DNA from: Aquibium sp. A9E412
Lineage (GTDB): Bacteria > Pseudomonadota > Alphaproteobacteria > Rhizobiales > Rhizobiaceae
Assembly (NCBI RefSeq): GCF_030398335.1
Contig: NZ_JAOAOP010000013.1
Span: 1 to 64,000, forward strand
DNA length: 64,000 nt
Direction: 5' to 3'
The notes beneath the pieces are model-generated. The model was not told the origin of the DNA. It made no database searches and saw nothing but the letters and a program-made list of their open reading frames with translations. The position numbers were made by a program, and so were the translations under genes. Below, one piece after another: positions 4,326-43,102 of the stretch; positions within the stretch are counted from its first letter, which is position 1, and every line of letters begins with the position of its first letter.

Positions 4326-5291
4326 GCCGGTCCGTCGCGGCATGCGGAAGGGCAGCATCAGCTTGACCAGCGGCGAGCCGAAGCGGTGGCCGGAAAAGCT
4401 CTCATGCATCATCGTCACCGGCTCGCCGAAGAGCCGCGTGGCGACCAGCGAGCGGGTGTAGAACGGCCCGTCCTCCAGCGTGCGGCGCACCGCCGGCAGC
4501 GCGCCGGCATCGCCGTGGCCGTAGCGCGCGACGCCCCAGAAGCCGGCCGCAAGCCGCGTGCGCACCGGCGCGTCGACCGGTTCGGCCTCGCCGCCCGGCG
4601 GCACGCGCAGCGCCAGGCAGCGGCGGTGGCCGGTCGCCTCGGTCGTGTCGTAGACGATCGCCGCGCCGCCGTCGGCAAGCCGCGCGCGCGCCCAGTCCCA
4701 GCGCGCGAAGCCGGTCTCGAGCGGCGCCTCGCCCCAGTTGCTGTCGAGATAGCCGTGGCCACGCCAGCGCGGCCCGTCTGCGCCGCAGTCGAGCGCGATG
4801 TCGGCTGTCGGCGCCACCGGCCACCAGCGGTGCCGGCCCGCCGCGTCGATGTCGAAGACGCGGCCGGTGACGGCTCGCGGCGTCACGCGGATCGTGCCGC
4901 GCATGCGCCGCGGCCACCACTGGCGCGGCGGCCGGGGCAGGCTCACCTCGTCGAAGGCGACGGTCAGCGTCGTGCCGTCCCAGGCAAGCGCGCTCGGGCC
5001 GACGCGGAACGTGCCGGCGTCGCGCGCCAGCGCCGCCCGGCCGCGCTCGGTCATCGACCAGCGGTCGGCGCCCGGCGCATAGAGCGCGACGTTGATGCAC
5101 ACGTGATCGTCCGGCCGGCGGCGACCGGCCCAGGCATAGTAGGGCGAGAACACCGAGCCGACGAAGGCGATGACGGTGAGGCCGTAGCGGCCGCACGCGC
5201 TCAGGCCGTCGACGTACCACCAGAGATAGCCGCCGGGCGGAACCGCGGCGTCGAAGCGCGGTCCGCTGCCAGGCGCTCCGCCGCCAGCCAG
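4311..5291 (-). CDS. crtC: Carotenoid 1,2-hydratase, start uncertain
   Basis: CrtC adds water across the C-1,2 double bond of neurosporene or lycopene derivatives, the first tailoring step to spheroidene or spirilloxanthin. Family hallmarks are visible: FDAAVPPGGYLWWYVD, FVGSVFSPYYAWAG, HVCINVALY, YLDSNWGEAPLE and a late GPFYTRS. The frame has no ATG, GTG or TTG before the conserved PPGGYLWWYVD block; the first conventional start is a GTG inside FVGSVFSPYYAW, which would delete that block. The start given (CTG at 5291) is nominal. The gene overlaps the end of crtD by about 90 bases, so it may be translated by coupling. Confidence 0.85.
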   Translation of the reverse strand: MAGGGAPGSGPRFDAAVPPGGYLWWYVDGLSACGRYGLTVIAFVGSVFSPYYAWAGRRRPDDHVCINVALYAPGADRWSMTERGRAALARDAGTFRVGPSALAWDGTTLTVAFDEVSLPRPPRQWWPRRMRGTIRVTPRAVTGRVFDIDAAGRHRWWPVAPTADIALDCGADGPRWRGHGYLDSNWGEAPLETGFARWDWARARLADGGAAIVYDTTEATGHRRCLALRVPPGGEAEPVDAPVRTRLAAGFWGVARYGHGDAGALPAVRRTLEDGPFYTRSLVATRLFGEPVTMMHESFSGHRFGSPLVKLMLPFRMPRRTGSRAV

Positions 5292-6772
5292 CCGGAAAGC
5301 GCGGCCATCGGCACGCCCGGCCCCGGATGCACGCTGCCGCCCGCCAGGTAGAGGCCGGGCAGCCGGCTCGCCGCTCCCGGCCGCTGGAAGGACGCCATCC
5401 AGCCATGCGCGGCGCGGCCGTAGAGCGCTCCGCCGGTCGCCGGATAAAGCCGTTCGAAATCGCCCGGCGTCGTCGCCGCCGGCGGCGCCGCCGGCTCCAG
5501 CGTCAGGCCGCAGCGCGCGGCCTGGGTCAGCGTCCTGTCCAGCCATCGTTCGGTCTCGCTTGCATCGTCGGGGCGCCGGTCGCCGTCGGCCGGCGCGTTG
5601 ATCAGGCAGAAGAGCCGTTCGCCGGCGGCCGCCCCCGGCGCCTTGGCGTGCCGCGTCTGCGGCCGGCCGGCATCGTCGCGGTCGGGCGCGCACAGATAGA
5701 CGGTCGGCCGGTCCGGCACGCGGCGCCGGCGGAAGATCGCCTCGAACTCGGCCCGGTAGTCGTCCGAAAACAGCACCGTGTGGTGCGCCGGGGTGAAGCC
5801 GCGCGCCCGGCCGGCGAAGGCGAAGGTGACGGCCGACAGCGAGCGCGCCGGCGGCGCAACCGGCTTCAGCCCGGTCGCCAGATCGCCGAGCCGGCCGGCG
5901 GCGAGCGCCGAGACGTCGCCGTTGAAGACGACCGCGCCGGCGGCCAGCTCGCTGCCGTCGGCAAGCCGCACGCCGGCGGCGCGGCCGCCGCGGACGGTCA
6001 CGGCGGCGACCGGGGTGCGGCAGCGGATGACGACGCCGAGACGCTCGGCCACGCGCGCCAGCGCGGCGGCGAGCGCGGCCATGCCGCCCTCGACCAGCCA
6101 CACGCCGGCCTGCTCGACATGGGCGACCAGCATCAGCGTGGCCGGCGCGGCGAAGGGCGACGACCCGCAATAGGTGGCGTAGCGGCCGAAGAGCTGGCGC
6201 AGCCGCGGGTCCGTGAAATGCGTGCCGAGCGCCGACCACAGCGTCGAGAACGGCTTGAGCGCCAGCATCGCCGGCAGCCGCGCGGCGCCGACGCGCGCAG
6301 CCAGCTCGAACGGGCCCGGCCGGCTGGCGGCGATGTAGCTCGCCTCGAGCGTGCGGTAGATGCCGGCCGCCTCGGCGCAGAAGCGGCGATAGCCCTCGGC
6401 GTTGCGCCGGTCGGAGAAGGCGGCGATCGCCGCCGCGCTGCGCTCCACGTCGGCGAAGAGATCGAGCCGCGTGCCGTCCGGCCAGGCGTGGCGGGCAAGG
6501 GTTGCGGCCCGGGCGATCGCGAGCTCGGCTTCCGGCGTCGTGCCGGCGGCGGCGAGGATGCGGTCGAACACCCACTTCATGGTGAACACGGTGGGGCCGG
6601 CATCGACCGGACCGGCCGGCGTGTCGCGGGTGCGGACCTTGCCGCCCGGCCGCGCCCGGCTTTCCAGCACCAGCACCTCGAAGCCGCGCGCGGCCAGGCC
6701 GATCGCCGCCGTCAGCCCGGCGACGCCGGCGCCGACCACCACCACCCGGTCGCGGTTTCGCACCGCCTGCAT
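5201..6772 (-). CDS. crtD: Hydroxyneurosporene/methoxyneurosporene desaturase
   Basis: CrtD (523 aa) is a CrtI-like FAD desaturase that introduces the C-3,4 double bond into hydroxylated carotenoids after CrtC. The N-terminal nucleotide-binding motif VVVGAGVAGLTAAIGLAARG and the C-terminal GLYLAGGSVHPGPGVPMAAL are clear. Position between crtC and a divergent crtE identifies it as CrtD rather than a second CrtI. The ATG at 6772 faces crtE across a 100-bp region with one perfect and one near-perfect PpsR operator. It overlaps crtC downstream. Confidence 0.93.
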   Translation of the reverse strand: MQAVRNRDRVVVVGAGVAGLTAAIGLAARGFEVLVLESRARPGGKVRTRDTPAGPVDAGPTVFTMKWVFDRILAAAGTTPEAELAIARAATLARHAWPDGTRLDLFADVERSAAAIAAFSDRRNAEGYRRFCAEAAGIYRTLEASYIAASRPGPFELAARVGAARLPAMLALKPFSTLWSALGTHFTDPRLRQLFGRYATYCGSSPFAAPATLMLVAHVEQAGVWLVEGGMAALAAALARVAERLGVVIRCRTPVAAVTVRGGRAAGVRLADGSELAAGAVVFNGDVSALAAGRLGDLATGLKPVAPPARSLSAVTFAFAGRARGFTPAHHTVLFSDDYRAEFEAIFRRRRVPDRPTVYLCAPDRDDAGRPQTRHAKAPGAAAGERLFCLINAPADGDRRPDDASETERWLDRTLTQAARCGLTLEPAAPPAATTPGDFERLYPATGGALYGRAAHGWMASFQRPGAASRLPGLYLAGGSVHPGPGVPMAALSGWLAAERLAADRASTPRFRPAAISGGTSTA

Positions 6773-6810: not shown

Positions 6811-6828
6811 TGTCAATCTAATTTTACA
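6811..6828. promoter_or_regulatory. PpsR/CrtJ operator between crtD and crtE
   Basis: TGTCAATCTAATTTTACA, an exact TGT-N12-ACA match in the 100-bp divergent crtD/crtE region, followed 8 bases later by a second near-match. Confidence 0.88.
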
Positions 6829-8936: not shown

Positions 8937-8954
8937 TGTAAAAATAAATTGACA
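8937..8954. promoter_or_regulatory. PpsR/CrtJ operator 1 before bchC
   Basis: TGTAAAAATAAATTGACA, exact TGT-N12-ACA, first of two exact sites separated by 8 bases upstream of bchC. Confidence 0.9.
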
Positions 8955-8962
8955 CTTAGTAA

Positions 8963-8980
8963 TGTCCATTTAGGATTACA
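8963..8980. promoter_or_regulatory. PpsR/CrtJ operator 2 before bchC
   Basis: TGTCCATTTAGGATTACA, exact TGT-N12-ACA, 51 bases before the bchC ATG. Together with the site 8 bases upstream it reproduces the tandem-operator layout of the Rhodobacter bchC promoter. Confidence 0.9.
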
Positions 8981-9031: not shown

Positions 9032-9973
9032 ATGAACACAACCGCAGTAGTGCTCGACAAGCCCCGCAGCATCGGCCTGGAAGGCCTGACGCTGCTGGAC
9101 GCCGGCGAGCGCGACGTCGTCATCGACGTTGCCTGGAGCGGCATCAGCACGGGCACCGAGAAGCTTTTGTTCGAGGGCGCCATGCCACCCTTCCCCGGCA
9201 TGGGCTATCCGCTGGTGCCCGGCTACGAGGCGGTCGGCCGCATCGCGCAGGCCGGCGCGCAGTCGGGCCGCAGGGCCGGCGACATGGTGTTCGTGCCCGG
9301 CGCGCGCTGCTTTCGCGGCGTCAACGGGCTGTTCGGCGCCACCGCCTCGCGGCTGGTCGTCGCCGGCGAGCGCGCGGTCGTCGTGCCCGAGCCGCTCGGC
9401 GAGGATGCCGTGCTCCTGGCGCTCGCCGCCACCGCGCACCACGCGCTCCGGCTCGACGGCGCGCCGCCGCCCGATCTCGTCATCGGCCATGGCGTGCTCG
9501 GCCGGCTCCTGGCGCGTGTCGCGCTGGCGCTCGGCTTCGCCGCGCCGACCGTGTGGGAGCGCGACGCGGCGCGGCGCGACGGCGCGCGCGGCTATCGGGT
9601 GATCGACGGCGCGGCGGACACGCGCAGCGACTATCGCGCCATCATCGACGCGAGCGGCGATCCGCATGTGCTCGACACCGCGATCGCGCATCTGGCGCCG
9701 CGCGGCCACATCACGCTGGCCGGCTTCTACGGCGCGCCGCTCGGCTTCGCCTTTCCGCCGGCCTTCATGCGCGAGGCGCGCATCGCGATCGCCGCGGAGT
9801 TCACGCCCGACGACACGCGCGCCGTTCTGGCGCTGGCGGCCGACGGACGCCTGCGGCTCGACGGGCTGATCACCCACCGCGCAGCGGCCGCCGACGCACC
9901 GGCCGCCTATGCCACCGCCTTCGGCGACCCGGCCTGCGTGAAGATGGTTCTGGACTGGAGGACGAGCGCATGA
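9032..9973 (+). CDS. bchC: Bacteriochlorophyllide a dehydrogenase
   Basis: BchC (313 aa) oxidises the C-3 hydroxyethyl group of the chlorin/bacteriochlorin to acetyl, one of the last steps to bacteriochlorophyllide a. It is a compact member of the medium-chain alcohol dehydrogenase superfamily: GISTGTEKLLFEG and FPGMGYPLVPGYEAVGRI in the N-terminal half, and a short Rossmann part (VIGHGVLGRLLARV near residue 150). First gene of the bchCXYZ-puf run; its stop overlaps the bchX start (ATGA). Confidence 0.95.
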   Translation: MNTTAVVLDKPRSIGLEGLTLLDAGERDVVIDVAWSGISTGTEKLLFEGAMPPFPGMGYPLVPGYEAVGRIAQAGAQSGRRAGDMVFVPGARCFRGVNGLFGATASRLVVAGERAVVVPEPLGEDAVLLALAATAHHALRLDGAPPPDLVIGHGVLGRLLARVALALGFAAPTVWERDAARRDGARGYRVIDGAADTRSDYRAIIDASGDPHVLDTAIAHLAPRGHITLAGFYGAPLGFAFPPAFMREARIAIAAEFTPDDTRAVLALAADGRLRLDGLITHRAAAADAPAAYATAFGDPACVKMVLDWRTSA

Positions 9974-35571: not shown

Positions 35572-36990
35572 ATGGACGATCGGATCTCACGATCAACCCA
35601 TCGCACCTTCAGCGAATCTGAAGAGCTCTTCGCTTCGGTCGGCGGCAACATCGCTTCCTATCTGGCCTCGATCGGCTCGGACATCTCGCTGGTGCTGAGC
35701 CTCGACGGCGTGATTCGCGACGTCGCCTACCGCGACGCCGGTCTCGAGCGCTACGGCATCGACGACTGGATCGGCAAGCGCTGGCAGGACACCGTCACGC
35801 CGGAGAGCGTGGAGAAGATCTCCGCGCTGATCGACGAGAGCGCCAAGGGCATGACGACGCGGCGCCGGCAGGTCAACCACCCGGCCAAGGGGCTGCCCGA
35901 CCTGCCGGTCGACTACACCGTCATCGCCATCGAGGGCCTGCCCTACCGCGTCGCGCTCGGCGACGACCTGCGCACGCTGGCGGAGATCCAGAGCCAGCTC
36001 GTGCGCGCCCAGCTCGAGCTCGAGCGCGAGTACCGCAAGATCCGCGAGGCAGAGACGCGCTACCGCACCGTGTTCCAGAAATCCGATCAGCCGATCCTGA
36101 TCGTCGACGGCGCGGAGCGGCGCATCGTCGACGCCAACCTGTCGGCGGTCAAGCTGCTCGGCCGGCCGCTGCAGAAGCTGATCGGCGAGGCGCCGACCAG
36201 CTTCCTGGAGCGCTCGGAGCGCGAGAGCGCGGCCGAGGCGCTGAGCGAATCGCAGCACAGCGGCACCGCCAAGCTGATCCGCTCCAGGCTCAGCGAGCCC
36301 GGCGCCGAGCAGCTCATCTCCATCGATCCGTTCCGAGAGAACGGCCGCAACAACCTGCTCCTGCGCTTCATCGACAGCGAGCCGGGCGAAGGCGTGCCCG
36401 GCGAGGACCTGTTCCAGACCCTGCCGGAAGGCCTGGTGCGCACCGACATGAAGGGCGTGGTGCGCGACACCAACGACCAGTTCCTCGACCTGGTCAGCGT
36501 GCTCAACAAGGACCGCATCGTCGGCCGCAACCTGAACAACTGGCTGGGCGCCTCGCCGGTCGACATGAACGTGCTCCTGTCGCGGCTGCGCGAGGAGGGC
36601 CAGGTGCGCCAGTTCTCCACCGTGGTGCGCGACGAGCTCGGCGGCAGCCGCTCGGTCGTCGTCTCGGCCGGCGTCTACCACGGCAACGGCGAACCGATGA
36701 TCGGCCTGCTGATCGCCGAGGCGCCGCGGCGCGAGAGCGCGGTGCCGGCCATGCAGCCCGGCGGCCTCGCCTCCGGCTCGTCCGACTTCTCGCAGCTCGT
36801 CGGCCGCGTGCCGCTCAAGGAGCTGATCCGCGAGGCCGTCGACGTCATCGAGAAGATGTGCATCGAGGCCGCGCTGCGCCAGACCGACAACAACCGCGCC
36901 TCGGCGGCCGACATGCTCGGCCTCAGCCGGCAGAGCCTCTACATCAAGCTGCGCCGCCACGGGCTGGAGAACTTCGGGTCGGGAAGCTGA
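35572..36990 (+). CDS. ppsR: Photosynthesis gene repressor PpsR/CrtJ
   Basis: Redox- and light-responsive transcription repressor (472 aa) that binds TGT-N12-ACA. Domain order: N-terminal domain (about 20-140), a long linker helix (ELEREYRKIREAETRYRTVF), PAS1 (about 160-270), PAS2 (about 280-385), and a Fis-type helix-turn-helix at the end (CIEAALRQTDNNRASAADML, SRQSLYIKLRRHGL). The only cysteine in the protein is Cys430, in the DNA-binding domain, matching the C-terminal redox cysteine of Rhodobacter; the PAS-region cysteine is absent. Its own upstream gap (22 bases after ppaA) has no operator. Confidence 0.95.
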   Translation: MDDRISRSTHRTFSESEELFASVGGNIASYLASIGSDISLVLSLDGVIRDVAYRDAGLERYGIDDWIGKRWQDTVTPESVEKISALIDESAKGMTTRRRQVNHPAKGLPDLPVDYTVIAIEGLPYRVALGDDLRTLAEIQSQLVRAQLELEREYRKIREAETRYRTVFQKSDQPILIVDGAERRIVDANLSAVKLLGRPLQKLIGEAPTSFLERSERESAAEALSESQHSGTAKLIRSRLSEPGAEQLISIDPFRENGRNNLLLRFIDSEPGEGVPGEDLFQTLPEGLVRTDMKGVVRDTNDQFLDLVSVLNKDRIVGRNLNNWLGASPVDMNVLLSRLREEGQVRQFSTVVRDELGGSRSVVVSAGVYHGNGEPMIGLLIAEAPRRESAVPAMQPGGLASGSSDFSQLVGRVPLKELIREAVDVIEKMCIEAALRQTDNNRASAADMLGLSRQSLYIKLRRHGLENFGSGS

Positions 36991-37038: not shown

Positions 37039-37056
37039 TGTCAATATAGATTGACA
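37039..37056. promoter_or_regulatory. PpsR/CrtJ operator before bchG
   Basis: TGTCAATATAGATTGACA is an exact TGT-N12-ACA and also an extended palindrome (TGTCAAT/ATTGACA). It lies 29 bases before the bchG ATG and would control bchG, the PucC-family gene and bchP. Confidence 0.9.
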
Positions 37057-38012: not shown

Positions 38013-39364
38013 CCGCGCCGGCGGCATCGGGCGCGGCGCGCGGCCTCGGCTGGGTCGCCATTGCGCGGCTCGGCCTGGTGCAGGCCGCGCTCGGCTCGAT
38101 CGTGGTGCTGACGACCTCGACGCTCAACCGCGTGATGGTGGTCGAGCTGGCGCTCGCCGCCGTGGTGCCCGGCCTGCTCGTCGGGCTGCACTACGCGGTG
38201 CAGATCGCGCGGCCGCTGTGGGGCCACGGCTCCGACGTCGGCGGCAGCCGCACGCGCTTCATCCTCGGCGGGCTGGCGCTGCTGGCGCTCGCCGGCACCG
38301 GCGCGGCCGCCACCACCTTCCTGTTCGAGCGCGGCTTCTGGCCGGGCTTCCTCGCCGCCCTCGCCTGCTTCACGCTGATCGGCGTCGGCATCGGCGCCTC
38401 CGGCACCTCGCTGCTCGCGCTGCTCGCCAGCCGCACCGCGCCGGCGCGCCGGCCGGCGGCGGCGACCATCGTGTGGATGATGATGATCCTCGGCATCGTC
38501 GTCACCGCGCTGGTGTCGGGCAGCTTCCTCGATCCCTACTCGCACGGCCGCCTGGTCGCCGTCACGGCCGCCGCCGGCACGCTCGCGCTGGCGATCGCCG
38601 CGCTCGCGGTGACCGGCATCGAGCGGCGCGCGGCGGTCGCGGACAGGCCGGCCGAGGCGGGGCCGGCGCCGCGCTTCTCGGAAAGCCTGGCGGAGACCTG
38701 GGCCGATCCGCGGGCGCGACTGTTCACCGTCTTCGTCTTCGTGTCGATGCTCGCCTACAGCATGCAGGACCTGATCCTGGAGCCGTTCGCCGGCTTCCTG
38801 TTCGCCATGACGCCGGGCGAGACGACGCGGCTTTCGGGCACCCAGCACGGCGGCGTGTTCATCGGCATGGCGCTGGTCGGGCTGGTCGGCAGCCTGCTGG
38901 CGCGGCGCCGGCCGGAGGTGCTCAGGCTGTTCACCGTCGGCGGCTGCATCGGCTCCGGCCTGGCGCTCGCCCTGCTCGCCGTATCGGCCTCGCTGGCGCC
39001 GGCCTGGCCGCTCAAACTCAACATCTTCGCGCTCGGGCTGGCCAACGGCGCCTTCGCCGTCGCCGCCATCGGCACCATGATGGCGCTCGCCGGCGCCGGC
39101 CGGCCGGCGCGCGAGGGCATCCGCATGGGGCTGTGGGGCGCCGCGCAGGCGGTCGCCTTCGGCCTCGGCGGCTTCCTCGGCACCGTGGCGGTCGACGTCA
39201 CCCGCGCGCTGACCGGCGACGTGGCGCTGTCCTTCGCCATCGTCTTCACCGGCGAGGCGGCGCTGTTCGTCGCCGCCGCCCTCATTGCCCTGCGCGTCGG
39301 CGTGGCGACGCGCGGCGAAGGCCCGGCGCCCGCCGCCGCGGCCCCCCTCCAGCCCGCGGAGTAG
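38009..39364 (+). CDS. PucC-family transporter between bchG and bchP
   Basis: A 12-helix PucC/BCD-family protein (451 aa), a paralogue of LhaA in this window. Shared signatures are TSTLNRVMVVELALAAVVPG, IARPLWGHGSDVGGSRTRFI and AYSMQDLILEPFAGFLFAM. The equivalent gene in Rhodobacter is called bch2/orf428. It may move or hold (bacterio)chlorophyll pigments for complex assembly; this is inferred from relatives. Coupled to bchG by ATGA and followed by bchP after four bases. Confidence 0.9.
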   Translation: MTAPAASGAARGLGWVAIARLGLVQAALGSIVVLTTSTLNRVMVVELALAAVVPGLLVGLHYAVQIARPLWGHGSDVGGSRTRFILGGLALLALAGTGAAATTFLFERGFWPGFLAALACFTLIGVGIGASGTSLLALLASRTAPARRPAAATIVWMMMILGIVVTALVSGSFLDPYSHGRLVAVTAAAGTLALAIAALAVTGIERRAAVADRPAEAGPAPRFSESLAETWADPRARLFTVFVFVSMLAYSMQDLILEPFAGFLFAMTPGETTRLSGTQHGGVFIGMALVGLVGSLLARRRPEVLRLFTVGGCIGSGLALALLAVSASLAPAWPLKLNIFALGLANGAFAVAAIGTMMALAGAGRPAREGIRMGLWGAAQAVAFGLGGFLGTVAVDVTRALTGDVALSFAIVFTGEAALFVAAALIALRVGVATRGEGPAPAAAAPLQPAE

Positions 39365-39368
39365 CGCC

Positions 39369-40559
39369 ATGACCGGAAGCGCCTGGGACGTCATCGTGGT
39401 GGGCGGCGGCCCGGCCGGCGCCACCGCCGCCGCGCGGCTCGCCGGGGCCGGCCGCAGCGTGCTGCTCGTCGACCGCGAGGGCCGCACCAAGCCGTGCGGC
39501 GGCGCCATCCCGACGCGCGCCATCCGCGACTTCGCCATCCCGCCGGAGCTGCTCGCCGCGCGCGTGCGCAGCGCACGCATCATCGCGCCGAGCGGCCGCG
39601 CGATCGACATGCAGATCGGCGACCTCGGCTATGTCGGCATGGTCGACCGCGACGTGTTCGATCCGTGGCTGCGCGACCGCGCGGCCGCCGCCGGCGCCAC
39701 GCGGCTTGCCGGCACCTTCCGCGCGCTCGCGCGCAACCGCGACGGCACGGTGACCGTGACCGTGGCGCCGAAGGACCGCAGCCCGCCGGTGCACCACCGG
39801 GCGCGCGCGGTGATCGGCGCCGACGGCGCCAACTCGGCGGTGCGGCGCGCCGTCTTCGGTCCGGCCAAAACGCCGCCCTACGTCTTCGCCTACCACGAGA
39901 TCGTCAAGTCGCCGGCCGGCGCGACGGAGGCCTTCCGCCCCGACCGCTGCGACGTCGTCTACGACGGCGCCATCTCGCCCGATTTCTACGGCTGGGTGTT
40001 TCCGCATGGCGGCCAGACGAGCATCGGCTGCGGCACCGCGGTCAAGGGGCACAGCCTCAAGGCGGCGACGCGGCGGCTGCGCGCGGAGGCCGGCCTGGCC
40101 GAGGCCGAGACGGTGCGCGAGGAAGGCGCGCCGCTGCCGCTCAAGCCGATGCGGCGCTGGGATGACGGGCGCAACGTGGTGCTGGCCGGCGACGCGGCCG
40201 GCGTGGTGGCGCCGTCGTCGGGCGAAGGCATCTACTATGCCATGCTCGCCGGCACGCTGTGCGCCGAGGCCGCCGAGAGCCTGCTCGCCACCGGCCGCGC
40301 CGGCGCGCTGAAGGCGGCGCGGCGGCGCTTCATGCGCGAGCATGGCCGCGTCTTCCTGGCGCTCGGCCTGATGCAGTGGATCTGGTACCGCAGCGACAAG
40401 CGCCGCGAGCAGTTCGTCGCCATGTGCGCCGACGCCGACGTGCAGCGGCTGACCTGGGAGGCCTATCTCAACAAGCGCCTGGTGCGGCGCGAGCCGATGG
40501 CGCACATGCGCGTGTTCTTCAAGGACCTGCAGCAGCTCCTCGGCCTGGCGGCGCGCTGA
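39369..40559 (+). CDS. bchP: Geranylgeranyl reductase
   Basis: FAD enzyme (396 aa) that reduces geranylgeranyl-bacteriochlorophyll or its diphosphate to the phytyl form. The dinucleotide-binding motif DVIVVGGGPAGATAAARLAG, KPCGGAIPTRA, and the second FAD segment VVLAGDAAGVVAPSSGEGIY are diagnostic of the BchP/ChlP group. Third gene of the bchG operon. Confidence 0.95.
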   Translation: MTGSAWDVIVVGGGPAGATAAARLAGAGRSVLLVDREGRTKPCGGAIPTRAIRDFAIPPELLAARVRSARIIAPSGRAIDMQIGDLGYVGMVDRDVFDPWLRDRAAAAGATRLAGTFRALARNRDGTVTVTVAPKDRSPPVHHRARAVIGADGANSAVRRAVFGPAKTPPYVFAYHEIVKSPAGATEAFRPDRCDVVYDGAISPDFYGWVFPHGGQTSIGCGTAVKGHSLKAATRRLRAEAGLAEAETVREEGAPLPLKPMRRWDDGRNVVLAGDAAGVVAPSSGEGIYYAMLAGTLCAEAAESLLATGRAGALKAARRRFMREHGRVFLALGLMQWIWYRSDKRREQFVAMCADADVQRLTWEAYLNKRLVRREPMAHMRVFFKDLQQLLGLAAR

Positions 40560-40642: not shown

Positions 40643-40945
40643 ATGCCCGGCTGGCTCGAGCCGCTGTTTGCCGGCGGGCGCATCGCCGAGCTGGCGATGG
40701 CGGTGCTCGTGGTGGAAGGCGCGCTCCTCGCCTGGCTGGTGCGGAGCGCCGCCTGGCGGCGGCTTCTGCTCGTCAACGCGCTCGCCGGGCTCGCCCTGCT
40801 CGGCGCGCTGCGCGCCGCGCTGCTCGACGCCGGCCCGGTGTGGCTGGCGCTGTGGCTGGCGGCCGGGCTTGCCGCGCATGTCGCCGACGTGATCCTGCGG
40901 CTGAAGCAGGCGCGCGCCGGCCGGCCGAAGCCACGCGCCCCGTAA
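40643..40945 (+). CDS. Small membrane protein downstream of bchP
   Basis: A 100-residue protein with about three hydrophobic helices (AELAMAVLVVEGALLAWLV, LLLVNALAGLALLGALRAAL, VWLALWLAAGLAAHVADVI) and a basic end. I do not recognise a named family. It lies 83 bases after bchP on the same strand, so it may be co-transcribed. An earlier GTG at 40640 would add one residue. It ends 18 bases from the convergent tspO. Confidence 0.6.
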   Translation: MPGWLEPLFAGGRIAELAMAVLVVEGALLAWLVRSAAWRRLLLVNALAGLALLGALRAALLDAGPVWLALWLAAGLAAHVADVILRLKQARAGRPKPRAP

Positions 40946-40963: not shown

Positions 40964-41437
40964 TCACGCACCGCGCACGGCCTCGCGCGGGTTCATGCTC
41001 CAGACCTGCCAGTTGAGCGCGCCGGCCAGGCTGACCCACACCAGATAGGGCACGAAGCACAGCGCCGCCCACAGCGAGACCGGCCAGGCGACCAGGATGA
41101 AGCCGGCGATCGACAGCCAGAGCAGCGTGACGTCGGCAAACGCGATGTCCATGCGCCGGCGGCCGAAGAACAGCCACGACCAGGCGGCGTTGAAGACAAG
41201 CTGCGCGCCCCACAGCGCCACCGCCAGGCCCCAGCCGACCTCGCGCCACACCAGCCAGCCGGCCAGCGCGATCAGCACGTAGAGCGTCGTCCAGACGACG
41301 GGAAACGCCCAGTCGGGCGGCGTCCAGCCGGGCTTGTCCAGCGATTCGTACCACGCCCCCGGCTTGAAGATGGCGCCGGACGCCGCCGCGGCGACGACGA
41401 GCACGACGAAGACGGCGAGACTTGCAAGGTCACTCAT
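40964..41437 (-). CDS. tspO: TspO/CrtK tryptophan-rich sensory protein
   Basis: TspO/MBR-family membrane protein (157 aa, five helices), a porphyrin/sterol-binding protein that in Rhodobacter affects pigment gene expression under oxygen. Tryptophan-rich motifs KPGWTPPDWAFPVVWTTLYVL and NAAWSWLFFGRRRMDIAF are diagnostic. Its ATG has a good ribosome site (GAAGGGA). The same frame is, however, open upstream through the EamA transporter, so the protein could also be made as the C-terminus of a fusion. This reading assumes independent initiation. Confidence 0.9.
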   Translation of the reverse strand: MSDLASLAVFVVLVVAAAASGAIFKPGAWYESLDKPGWTPPDWAFPVVWTTLYVLIALAGWLVWREVGWGLAVALWGAQLVFNAAWSWLFFGRRRMDIAFADVTLLWLSIAGFILVAWPVSLWAALCFVPYLVWVSLAGALNWQVWSMNPREAVRGA

Positions 41438-42550
41438 GGCGTCCCTTCTCCGGCCGGTGCGGCGCGTTCGAGCGGTCCCGGCGCCGGCCGGGCCGCGTCC
41501 GGTCCGCGCGCGTCGGCCGAGTTCGGCCCGCCGCGGACGGGTTGTCAAGCGCCGTCGGCTTCCACGCCGGCGGGACGCGCCGGTTCCGCCCGCGCCGCCC
41601 GGCGCGGGCGATGCGCTGGCAAGCCGCAGCGCCAGCACCAGGAGACCCACGCCGAGCAGCGCCGGCCAGCCCGGCACCTCGCCGAACAGCAGCACCGACA
41701 GCGCCGCCCCGCCGACCACGGCGACGTAGTTCGCCTGCGCGGCGAAGCTGCCGCCATGGCCACGCGCCAGGCGGAAGAACAGCACCAGCGCGACGAGCTC
41801 GGCCGCCACGATCAGCCAGACCGACGGCAGGCCGGCCAGGGCGACCAGATCGCCCCCCGTTCCGCCGCGCATGACGGCGAGGCCGGCGAAGACGGCGAGC
41901 GCCACATAGGCCTGGCCCTGGGCGACCTGCAGGTTGTCGGCGGCGCCCGGCCAGGCGGCGGCGATGAACAGCACATAGGCGGCGTAGAGAACGGGAATCG
42001 CGAAGGCGGCGACGATCCACAGCGGCGCCGCGCCGGCCGGCGCATCGGGTGCGGCCGGCAGCGCGGCGATGACCAGCGCCGTGGCGAGGAAGCCGGCGAC
42101 CACGCCGACGACGCGCCGCGGGCCGGCCGGCTCGAGCCGCAGGACGAGCGCGATGAAGACGGTCCAGACCGGCGCGCTGGTCACCACCAGCACGAACAGC
42201 AGTCCCGGCAGGTGGCGCGCGACGATAAGCTCCACCGCGAAGGGCGCCCCGAAGCCGACCACGCCGGCCACGAGGTAGAAGCGCAGGTGCCGGCGCGTGG
42301 CCGGCGGCCAGCGGCCGCGCAGCCCGTTGACCAGCGTCACCAGCAGCGCCACGCCGGCGGTCGCCACCAGCGCCACGTCGAAGGCGGCGGCGCCATGCGC
42401 GGTGGCGGCCTTGATGGCGATCAGCCGCACCGCCCAGGCGAGGCCGAGCGCGACGAGCAGCGCCAGCGCCACGGTCCCCGGAGCGCTGCCGGAGATGCCG
42501 ATGCCGGCGGCTGCATCGCCGCCTGGCGCCTTTTTCCTCGGTGAGACCAT
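40964..42550 (-). CDS. EamA/DMT-family transporter, frame continuous with TspO
   Basis: From the ATG at 42550 about 310 codons encode a ten-helix drug/metabolite transporter: two EamA repeats, with WAVRLIAIKAATAHG and GAPFAVELIVARHLPGLL in the first and YVAVVGGAALSVLLFGEVPG in the second. The frame does not stop there. It runs through an Arg/Thr-rich stretch of about 60 residues (about 41435-41615), unlike a membrane protein, into TspO, giving a 528-residue product. Either this is a real EamA-TspO fusion, or a stop has been lost or a base misread near 41600. A SoxR-type promoter faces the start. Confidence 0.7.
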   Translation of the reverse strand: MVSPRKKAPGGDAAAGIGISGSAPGTVALALLVALGLAWAVRLIAIKAATAHGAAAFDVALVATAGVALLVTLVNGLRGRWPPATRRHLRFYLVAGVVGFGAPFAVELIVARHLPGLLFVLVVTSAPVWTVFIALVLRLEPAGPRRVVGVVAGFLATALVIAALPAAPDAPAGAAPLWIVAAFAIPVLYAAYVLFIAAAWPGAADNLQVAQGQAYVALAVFAGLAVMRGGTGGDLVALAGLPSVWLIVAAELVALVLFFRLARGHGGSFAAQANYVAVVGGAALSVLLFGEVPGWPALLGVGLLVLALRLASASPAPGGAGGTGASRRRGSRRRLTTRPRRAELGRRARTGRGPAGAGTARTRRTGRRRDAMSDLASLAVFVVLVVAAAASGAIFKPGAWYESLDKPGWTPPDWAFPVVWTTLYVLIALAGWLVWREVGWGLAVALWGAQLVFNAAWSWLFFGRRRMDIAFADVTLLWLSIAGFILVAWPVSLWAALCFVPYLVWVSLAGALNWQVWSMNPREAVRGA

Positions 42551-42607
42551 CGCGATCCGGCTCCGTGCATTGCGGCCGGCGGCTTTCGCGCCGCGGCAAG
42601 GCGTGGC

Positions 42608-42638
42608 ACCCTGCCACCTCAACCTTTCTTGAGGTCAA
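42608..42638 (-). promoter_or_regulatory. SoxR box within a 19-bp-spacer promoter
   Basis: CCTCAACCTTTCTTGAGG (42617-42634) is an 18-bp palindrome matching the enterobacterial SoxR box CCTCAA-N6-TTGAGG. Read on the minus strand it lies between a -35 TTGACC (42638-42633) and a -10-like CAGGGT (42613-42608) separated by exactly 19 bases, the over-long spacing of MerR-family activated promoters. The promoter points to the EamA-TspO frame; soxR starts 18 bases on the other side. Confidence 0.88.
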
Positions 42639-42652
42639 GGGGAAAGAACCGC

Positions 42653-43102
42653 ATGCCGAACGCAAGACCGCGGGCCACCGATGCCCTGTCGGTGGGCGAG
42701 CTCGCCGCGCGCAGCGGCGTCGCCGTCTCCGCCATCCATTTCTACGAGCGCGAGGGGCTGATCGCCGGCTGGCGCACCGGCGCCAACCATCGGCGCTTTC
42801 ACCGCAGCACGCTGCGCCGGCTCGCGGTCATCCGCATCGCCCAGCGGCTCGGCCTCCCGCTTGCCGAGATCGGCAACGCGTTCCGGGCGCTGCCGGACGA
42901 CCATGCGCCCGACGCGCGGGCCTGGCAGCAACTGTCGGGCCTGTGGCGCGGCGATCTCGACCGGCGCATCGCCGAGCTCACGCGGCTGCGCGACCAGCTC
43001 GACTTCTGCATCGGCTGTGGCTGCCTGTCGATGAAGACATGCCCGATTTACAACCCAGACGATGCGCTCGCCGAACGCGGGCGGGGCGCACACCGCTTCT
43101 GA
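42653..43102 (+). CDS. soxR: Redox-sensing activator SoxR
   Basis: MerR-family regulator (149 aa). The N-terminal helix-turn-helix LSVGELAARSGVAVSAIHFY and the dimer helix are followed by the [2Fe-2S] motif C119-x2-C122-x-C124-x5-C130, the same numbering as in Escherichia coli SoxR. Outside enterics SoxR usually controls a few transporters and redox enzymes directly. Here a SoxR box lies immediately upstream, facing the divergent EamA-TspO frame. GGGGAAAG lies before the ATG at 42653. Confidence 0.96.
   Translation: MPNARPRATDALSVGELAARSGVAVSAIHFYEREGLIAGWRTGANHRRFHRSTLRRLAVIRIAQRLGLPLAEIGNAFRALPDDHAPDARAWQQLSGLWRGDLDRRIAELTRLRDQLDFCIGCGCLSMKTCPIYNPDDALAERGRGAHRF

Follow-up and report, generated by a model that had tools for sequence, protein, structure and literature searches.

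A soxR gene lies at the edge of a photosynthesis gene cluster in the window, the 64,000-nucleotide stretch of Aquibium sp. A9E412 DNA analyzed here, and is transcribed divergently from a gene for an EamA-family exporter behind which tspO follows on the same strand. This arrangement raises the question of whether SoxR controls the exporter, and whether such control would extend to tspO and thereby to photosynthesis, both of which had been proposed in a preliminary description of this DNA.

42653..43102, plus strand: soxR, encoding a [2Fe-2S] MerR-family redox sensor of 149 aa (TIGR01950, cysteines, PDB 2zhg)
42617..42634, no strand assigned: SoxR box CCTCAA-N6-TTGAGG, CCTCAACCTTTCTTGAGG, exact, kept at soxR in other bacteria
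42638-42633, minus strand: -35 hexamer TTGACC of the predicted EamA promoter, near-invariant among 27 non-redundant soxR loci
42613-42608, minus strand: -10 hexamer CAGGGT of the predicted EamA promoter, with TAGGGT at the equivalent place in Paracoccus loci
41606..42550, minus strand: EamA/DMT-family exporter (PF00892), given as the portion that has homologues, about 315 aa starting at ATG 42550
41438..41605, minus strand: spacer of 168 bp between EamA and tspO, across which the frame stays open, probably non-coding
40964..41437, minus strand: tspO (crtK-like) of the photosynthesis cluster (PF03073), with its own ATG at 41437 and the Shine-Dalgarno sequence GGAGAAGGG

Judged from its sequence, the product of 42653-43102 is a bona fide SoxR. 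In a family-model search the protein scored 200.2 bits against TIGR01950, above the curated cut-off of 116.9, and residues 4-147 were aligned with E. coli SoxR (PDB 2zhg) with E=9e-51. The CxxCxCx5C motif for the [2Fe-2S] cluster is complete, with C119, C122, C124, and C130 at exactly the positions first described. A search of the genome returned this protein as the only one above the SoxR family cut-off.

The palindrome had been described as lying inside a TTGACC-19 bp-CAGGGT promoter pointing away from soxR into EamA, and this was borne out, the promoter being on the minus strand and the exact box standing between the two hexamers, whose 19-bp spacer is over-long. CAGGGT is a weak match to the sigma-70 consensus, yet retains the A of position 2 and the T of position 6; it differs by one base from the TAGGGT of Paracoccus SoxR promoters. 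The box at 42617-42634 is the sole match in the window at up to two mismatches. By chance, about 0.001 exact boxes are expected in the window; for the 4.28-Mb genome the expectation is 0.066, and two were observed. For the -35 hexamer and box combined (TTGACCTCAA-N6-TTGAGG), about 0.0001 sites are expected per genome, and the only exact ones present are those two. Apart from the EamA promoter, no promoter of the genome combines a SoxR site with a gene that follows it. A weak box at C15:1880, between aldehyde dehydrogenase and LysR-type genes, was rejected as a SoxR site, as TTTTCC replaces the -35 hexamer.

The same architecture was found at soxR loci of other Alphaproteobacteria and of Beta-, Gammaproteobacteria, and Actinomycetota, where the box lies about 20-120 bp 5' of the conserved SoxR start. 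When the 27 non-redundant loci were aligned on the box, nearly all had a TTGAC(C) -35 hexamer, a 19-bp spacer, and a direction away from soxR, with A at position 2 of the -10 hexamer in 25 of them. The genes divergent from soxR at these loci, named as read off their sequences, encode MFS pumps, NADPH-dependent FMN reductases, VOC proteins, superoxide dismutase, RidA, and SDR proteins, and of these the MFS, flavin reductase, VOC, superoxide dismutase, and RidA genes are typical SoxR targets. One genome, G009, has a reading for an Fe/Mn superoxide dismutase divergent from soxR with a one-mismatch box (L014; equivalent place in L146, 8476-8918), a classical defence gene directly adjoining soxR.

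The exporter itself gave a modest match to PF00892 (E=6.5e-8, 33.4 bits versus a gathering score of 28.2), and its GC content by codon position (0.80/0.53/0.93) has coding periodicity. A profile of its subfamily retrieved no sequence match from the PDB. The closest relatives were found in G020 (42% identity) and in family f40 (35-37%), with few more among nearly 1,200 genomes of the order, class, and phylum, which by sequence comparison makes the window's EamA a member of a rare subfamily. Its relatives in G020, G075, and G115 have neither box nor soxR. Among 60 relatives and 397 order, 385 class, and 398 phylum genomes, the soxR-EamA-tspO order was absent, and the soxR-EamA pair was found outside the window only in G150, a member of the same order but of a distant family; the pairing is thus rare. 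In G150, an EamA protein 37% identical to that of the window is encoded divergently from soxR across a perfect box, CCTCAACTAAGGTTGAGG (L096, L097); of two EamA copies there, only this one faces soxR, and the other has no box. A tblastn search of plasmids with the G150 EamA gave no match. An overlapping MATE-type efflux gene lies 3' of the SoxR-box-EamA pair in G150 (L097, 6833-9732), so that one promoter may place two unlike exporters, EamA and MATE-type, under SoxR.

In a SoxR tree that also included E. coli SoxR, the G150 soxR was sister to the MFS-linked soxR of G032 (100/100) and apart from that of the window. The EamA-SoxR pairing therefore probably arose twice, and on the simplest reading of the sequences this exporter type came under SoxR on two occasions. 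Since promoter geometry, exact box, adjacency to soxR, conserved architecture, and the second SoxR-box-EamA pair all agree, the proposed direct activation of an efflux-type transporter by SoxR is well supported, and we are confident, on sequence grounds, that the locus holds a SoxR-driven EamA exporter, a classical exporter switch of known kind. For the further suggestion that the exported metabolite is a pigment precursor we found no evidence.

Whether SoxR control might reach photosynthesis turns on tspO, and on the cluster of which it is part.

40643..40945, plus strand: membrane ORF of 100 aa between bchP and tspO, with an ORF of similar type in the same place in two relatives
39360..40559, plus strand: bchP, geranylgeranyl reductase, at the photosynthesis-cluster edge (TIGR02023, 470 bits)
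35572..36990, plus strand: ppsR, photosynthesis repressor (TIGR02040, 387 bits)

TspO matched PF03073 with 138.8 bits (E=1.4e-40) and structures of R. sphaeroides-type TspO with E of about 1e-32, and scored 161 bits against NCBIfam NF047825, below the cut-off of 180. Photosynthesis clusters include this gene as a standard member (PMC6052148, PMC6739100). G003 and G024, both photosynthetic and from the same family, share the order ppsR-bchG-pucC-bchP-small membrane ORF-tspO with the window; their TspO proteins are 63-66% identical to that of the window, and these two genomes have no SoxR above the family cut-off, no EamA, and no box at tspO. With the cluster order kept, and soxR, EamA, and box missing, tspO evidently arrived as part of the photosynthesis cluster; the sequences are most simply read as making the soxR-EamA pair a later neighbour. 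The small membrane ORF between bchP and tspO, of 95-100 aa, thus occurs in three photosynthetic family members (the window; L130, 9022-9306; L131, near 9130-9404). PpsR/CrtJ-type TGT-N12-ACA sites are enriched in the window, with 10 found versus 2.6 expected; they include 37039-37056, which precedes bchG, the tandem sites 8937-8954 and 8963-8980, and 6811-6828 and 1555-1572.

The alternative that fares best is a single operon of EamA and tspO driven by SoxR, such that redox-cycling stress would raise TspO and adjust pigment synthesis or tetrapyrrole handling. In its favor, tspO is on the same strand 168 bp 3' of EamA, and the absence of any terminator-like site in this interval, which also has no sigma-70-like site, makes read-through possible. 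No PpsR-type TGT-N12-ACA site was found near tspO, and control of tspO by PpsR was set aside for this reason. Moreover, work of Yeliseev and Kaplan, as cited by PMC4237140 and PMC4585239, assigns TspO of R. sphaeroides a regulatory role in the expression of photosynthesis genes. Against an operon, tspO stands without soxR, EamA, or box in the same-order relatives G003 and G024, the other tspO loci of relatives that were scanned are all free of a SoxR box, and tspO may have promoters of its own. We regard such an operon as possible but somewhat unlikely. Absence of the box from relatives with the same gene order counts against the tspO and photosynthesis part of the original proposal; the EamA part is unaffected, as the EamA gene is absent there. 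TspO is a separate protein encoded by a native photosynthesis-cluster gene and is no established SoxR target, leaving read-through from EamA into tspO as the sole route by which SoxR could be linked to photosynthesis. The claimed link thus came out weak, and we hold a SoxR-TspO-photosynthesis connection to be doubtful. It is unlikely that read-through from the EamA promoter puts tspO under SoxR and lets a redox-cycling sensor directly reset pigment and tetrapyrrole regulation.

The box might instead serve only soxR autoregulation, with EamA a neighbour by chance after a rearrangement. Consistent with this, the box of the trmL-linked soxR in relatives, G028 among them, faces away from soxR without a divergent gene. 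However, about 50 bp separate the predicted transcription start from the EamA start, and in G150 an EamA of this subfamily has an unrelated soxR as its partner; we therefore consider an autoregulation-only box very unlikely. The second perfect box of this genome, on contig C69 (43079-43096; L103, 5080-5097), stands behind trmL in the arrangement TTGACC-19-TATCTC with no soxR adjoining. In five family members (L143, L145, L150, L156, L159) soxR adjoins trmL, and in four of these hemF and petA lie close by, as at trmL in this genome. The C69 box is therefore probably what remains of a site from which soxR was lost or moved. Between this orphan box and hemF (L103, about 5220-5330), a remnant resembling a stomatin/SPFH C-terminus with an in-frame TAG was noted by eye. 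The branch of the window's SoxR in the tree is long and without firm placement; either soxR was relocated to the edge of the photosynthesis cluster, or a new copy arrived and the original was then lost.

EamA and TspO do share one open frame, as first described (40964-42622, minus strand, 552 codons), and the assembled sequence has no stop codon between them, as expected if a single fusion protein of 10+5 helices were translated under SoxR. The open frame is nonetheless no evidence of fusion. The linker is 83% GC, and by our own calculation, chance alone would leave 56 codons of such composition without a stop about 70% of the time. Its GC content by codon position (0.79/0.93/0.79, versus 0.65/0.52/0.94 in TspO) carries no coding signature, the EamA homologue of G020 ends where the linker starts, and homologous TspO proteins begin at the place equivalent to ATG 41437, for which a Shine-Dalgarno sequence is present. 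EamA-type carriers are expected to have a cytoplasmic C-terminus. Joining one to TspO would be awkward, as the N-terminus of R. sphaeroides TspO is outside (PMC4237140). With a GC-rich linker that lacks coding periodicity and a TspO with its own start, a fusion is highly improbable, and EamA and TspO are, from their sequences, more likely two separate proteins, whose open frame may reflect loss of a stop codon or an error in the assembly.

On the reading we favor, a SoxR-driven EamA exporter, SoxR dimers would occupy the one box that separates soxR from EamA, and reduced SoxR would keep the over-long 19-bp promoter closed. Redox-cycling compounds would oxidize the [2Fe-2S] cluster of SoxR, and the resulting distortion of the DNA would allow EamA transcription. 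SoxR bound near the soxR start would at the same time restrain its own synthesis. EamA would presumably export a small molecule that is redox-active or toxic in some other way, and the EamA transcript may continue into tspO. Such read-through would couple a sensor of redox cycling to a photosynthesis regulator; in its absence, the locus would be an ordinary SoxR exporter switch.

The preliminary description knew of no such regulon, but its closest counterpart has been tested experimentally. At mfsA-soxR of S. maltophilia, one box with a 19-bp spacer serves both genes, and the exporter mfsA is activated while soxR is repressed (PMC4411124). Both loci have a single box common to soxR and a divergent exporter, placed between the -35 and -10 hexamers of the exporter and just upstream of soxR. 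They differ in that the exporter here is of the EamA/DMT rather than the MFS type, tspO lies downstream, a photosynthesis cluster adjoins, and the present case is drawn from sequence. Transporters are likewise the usual targets of non-enteric SoxR (PMC4146615). The SoxR regulons of Pseudomonas aeruginosa and Streptomyces coelicolor are, as here, small and without soxS, and comprise transporters and enzymes that modify small molecules (PMC4146615), whereas the genome studied here has one such promoter with a gene behind it and a different transporter family. SoxR activating an exporter is thus already known, and the novelty is limited to the transporter family, EamA/DMT, which would join the transporters placed under SoxR with two unlinked cases. 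In a full-text literature search, with much subscription literature outside its coverage, no paper joined SoxR to TspO or EamA in this way. Compared with tspO/crtK of alphaproteobacterial photosynthesis clusters (PMC6052148, PMC6739100), the tspO of the window is of the same TspO family and is likewise a cluster member, but it occupies the bchP edge instead of a position behind crtIB, and it follows a gene with a predicted SoxR promoter.
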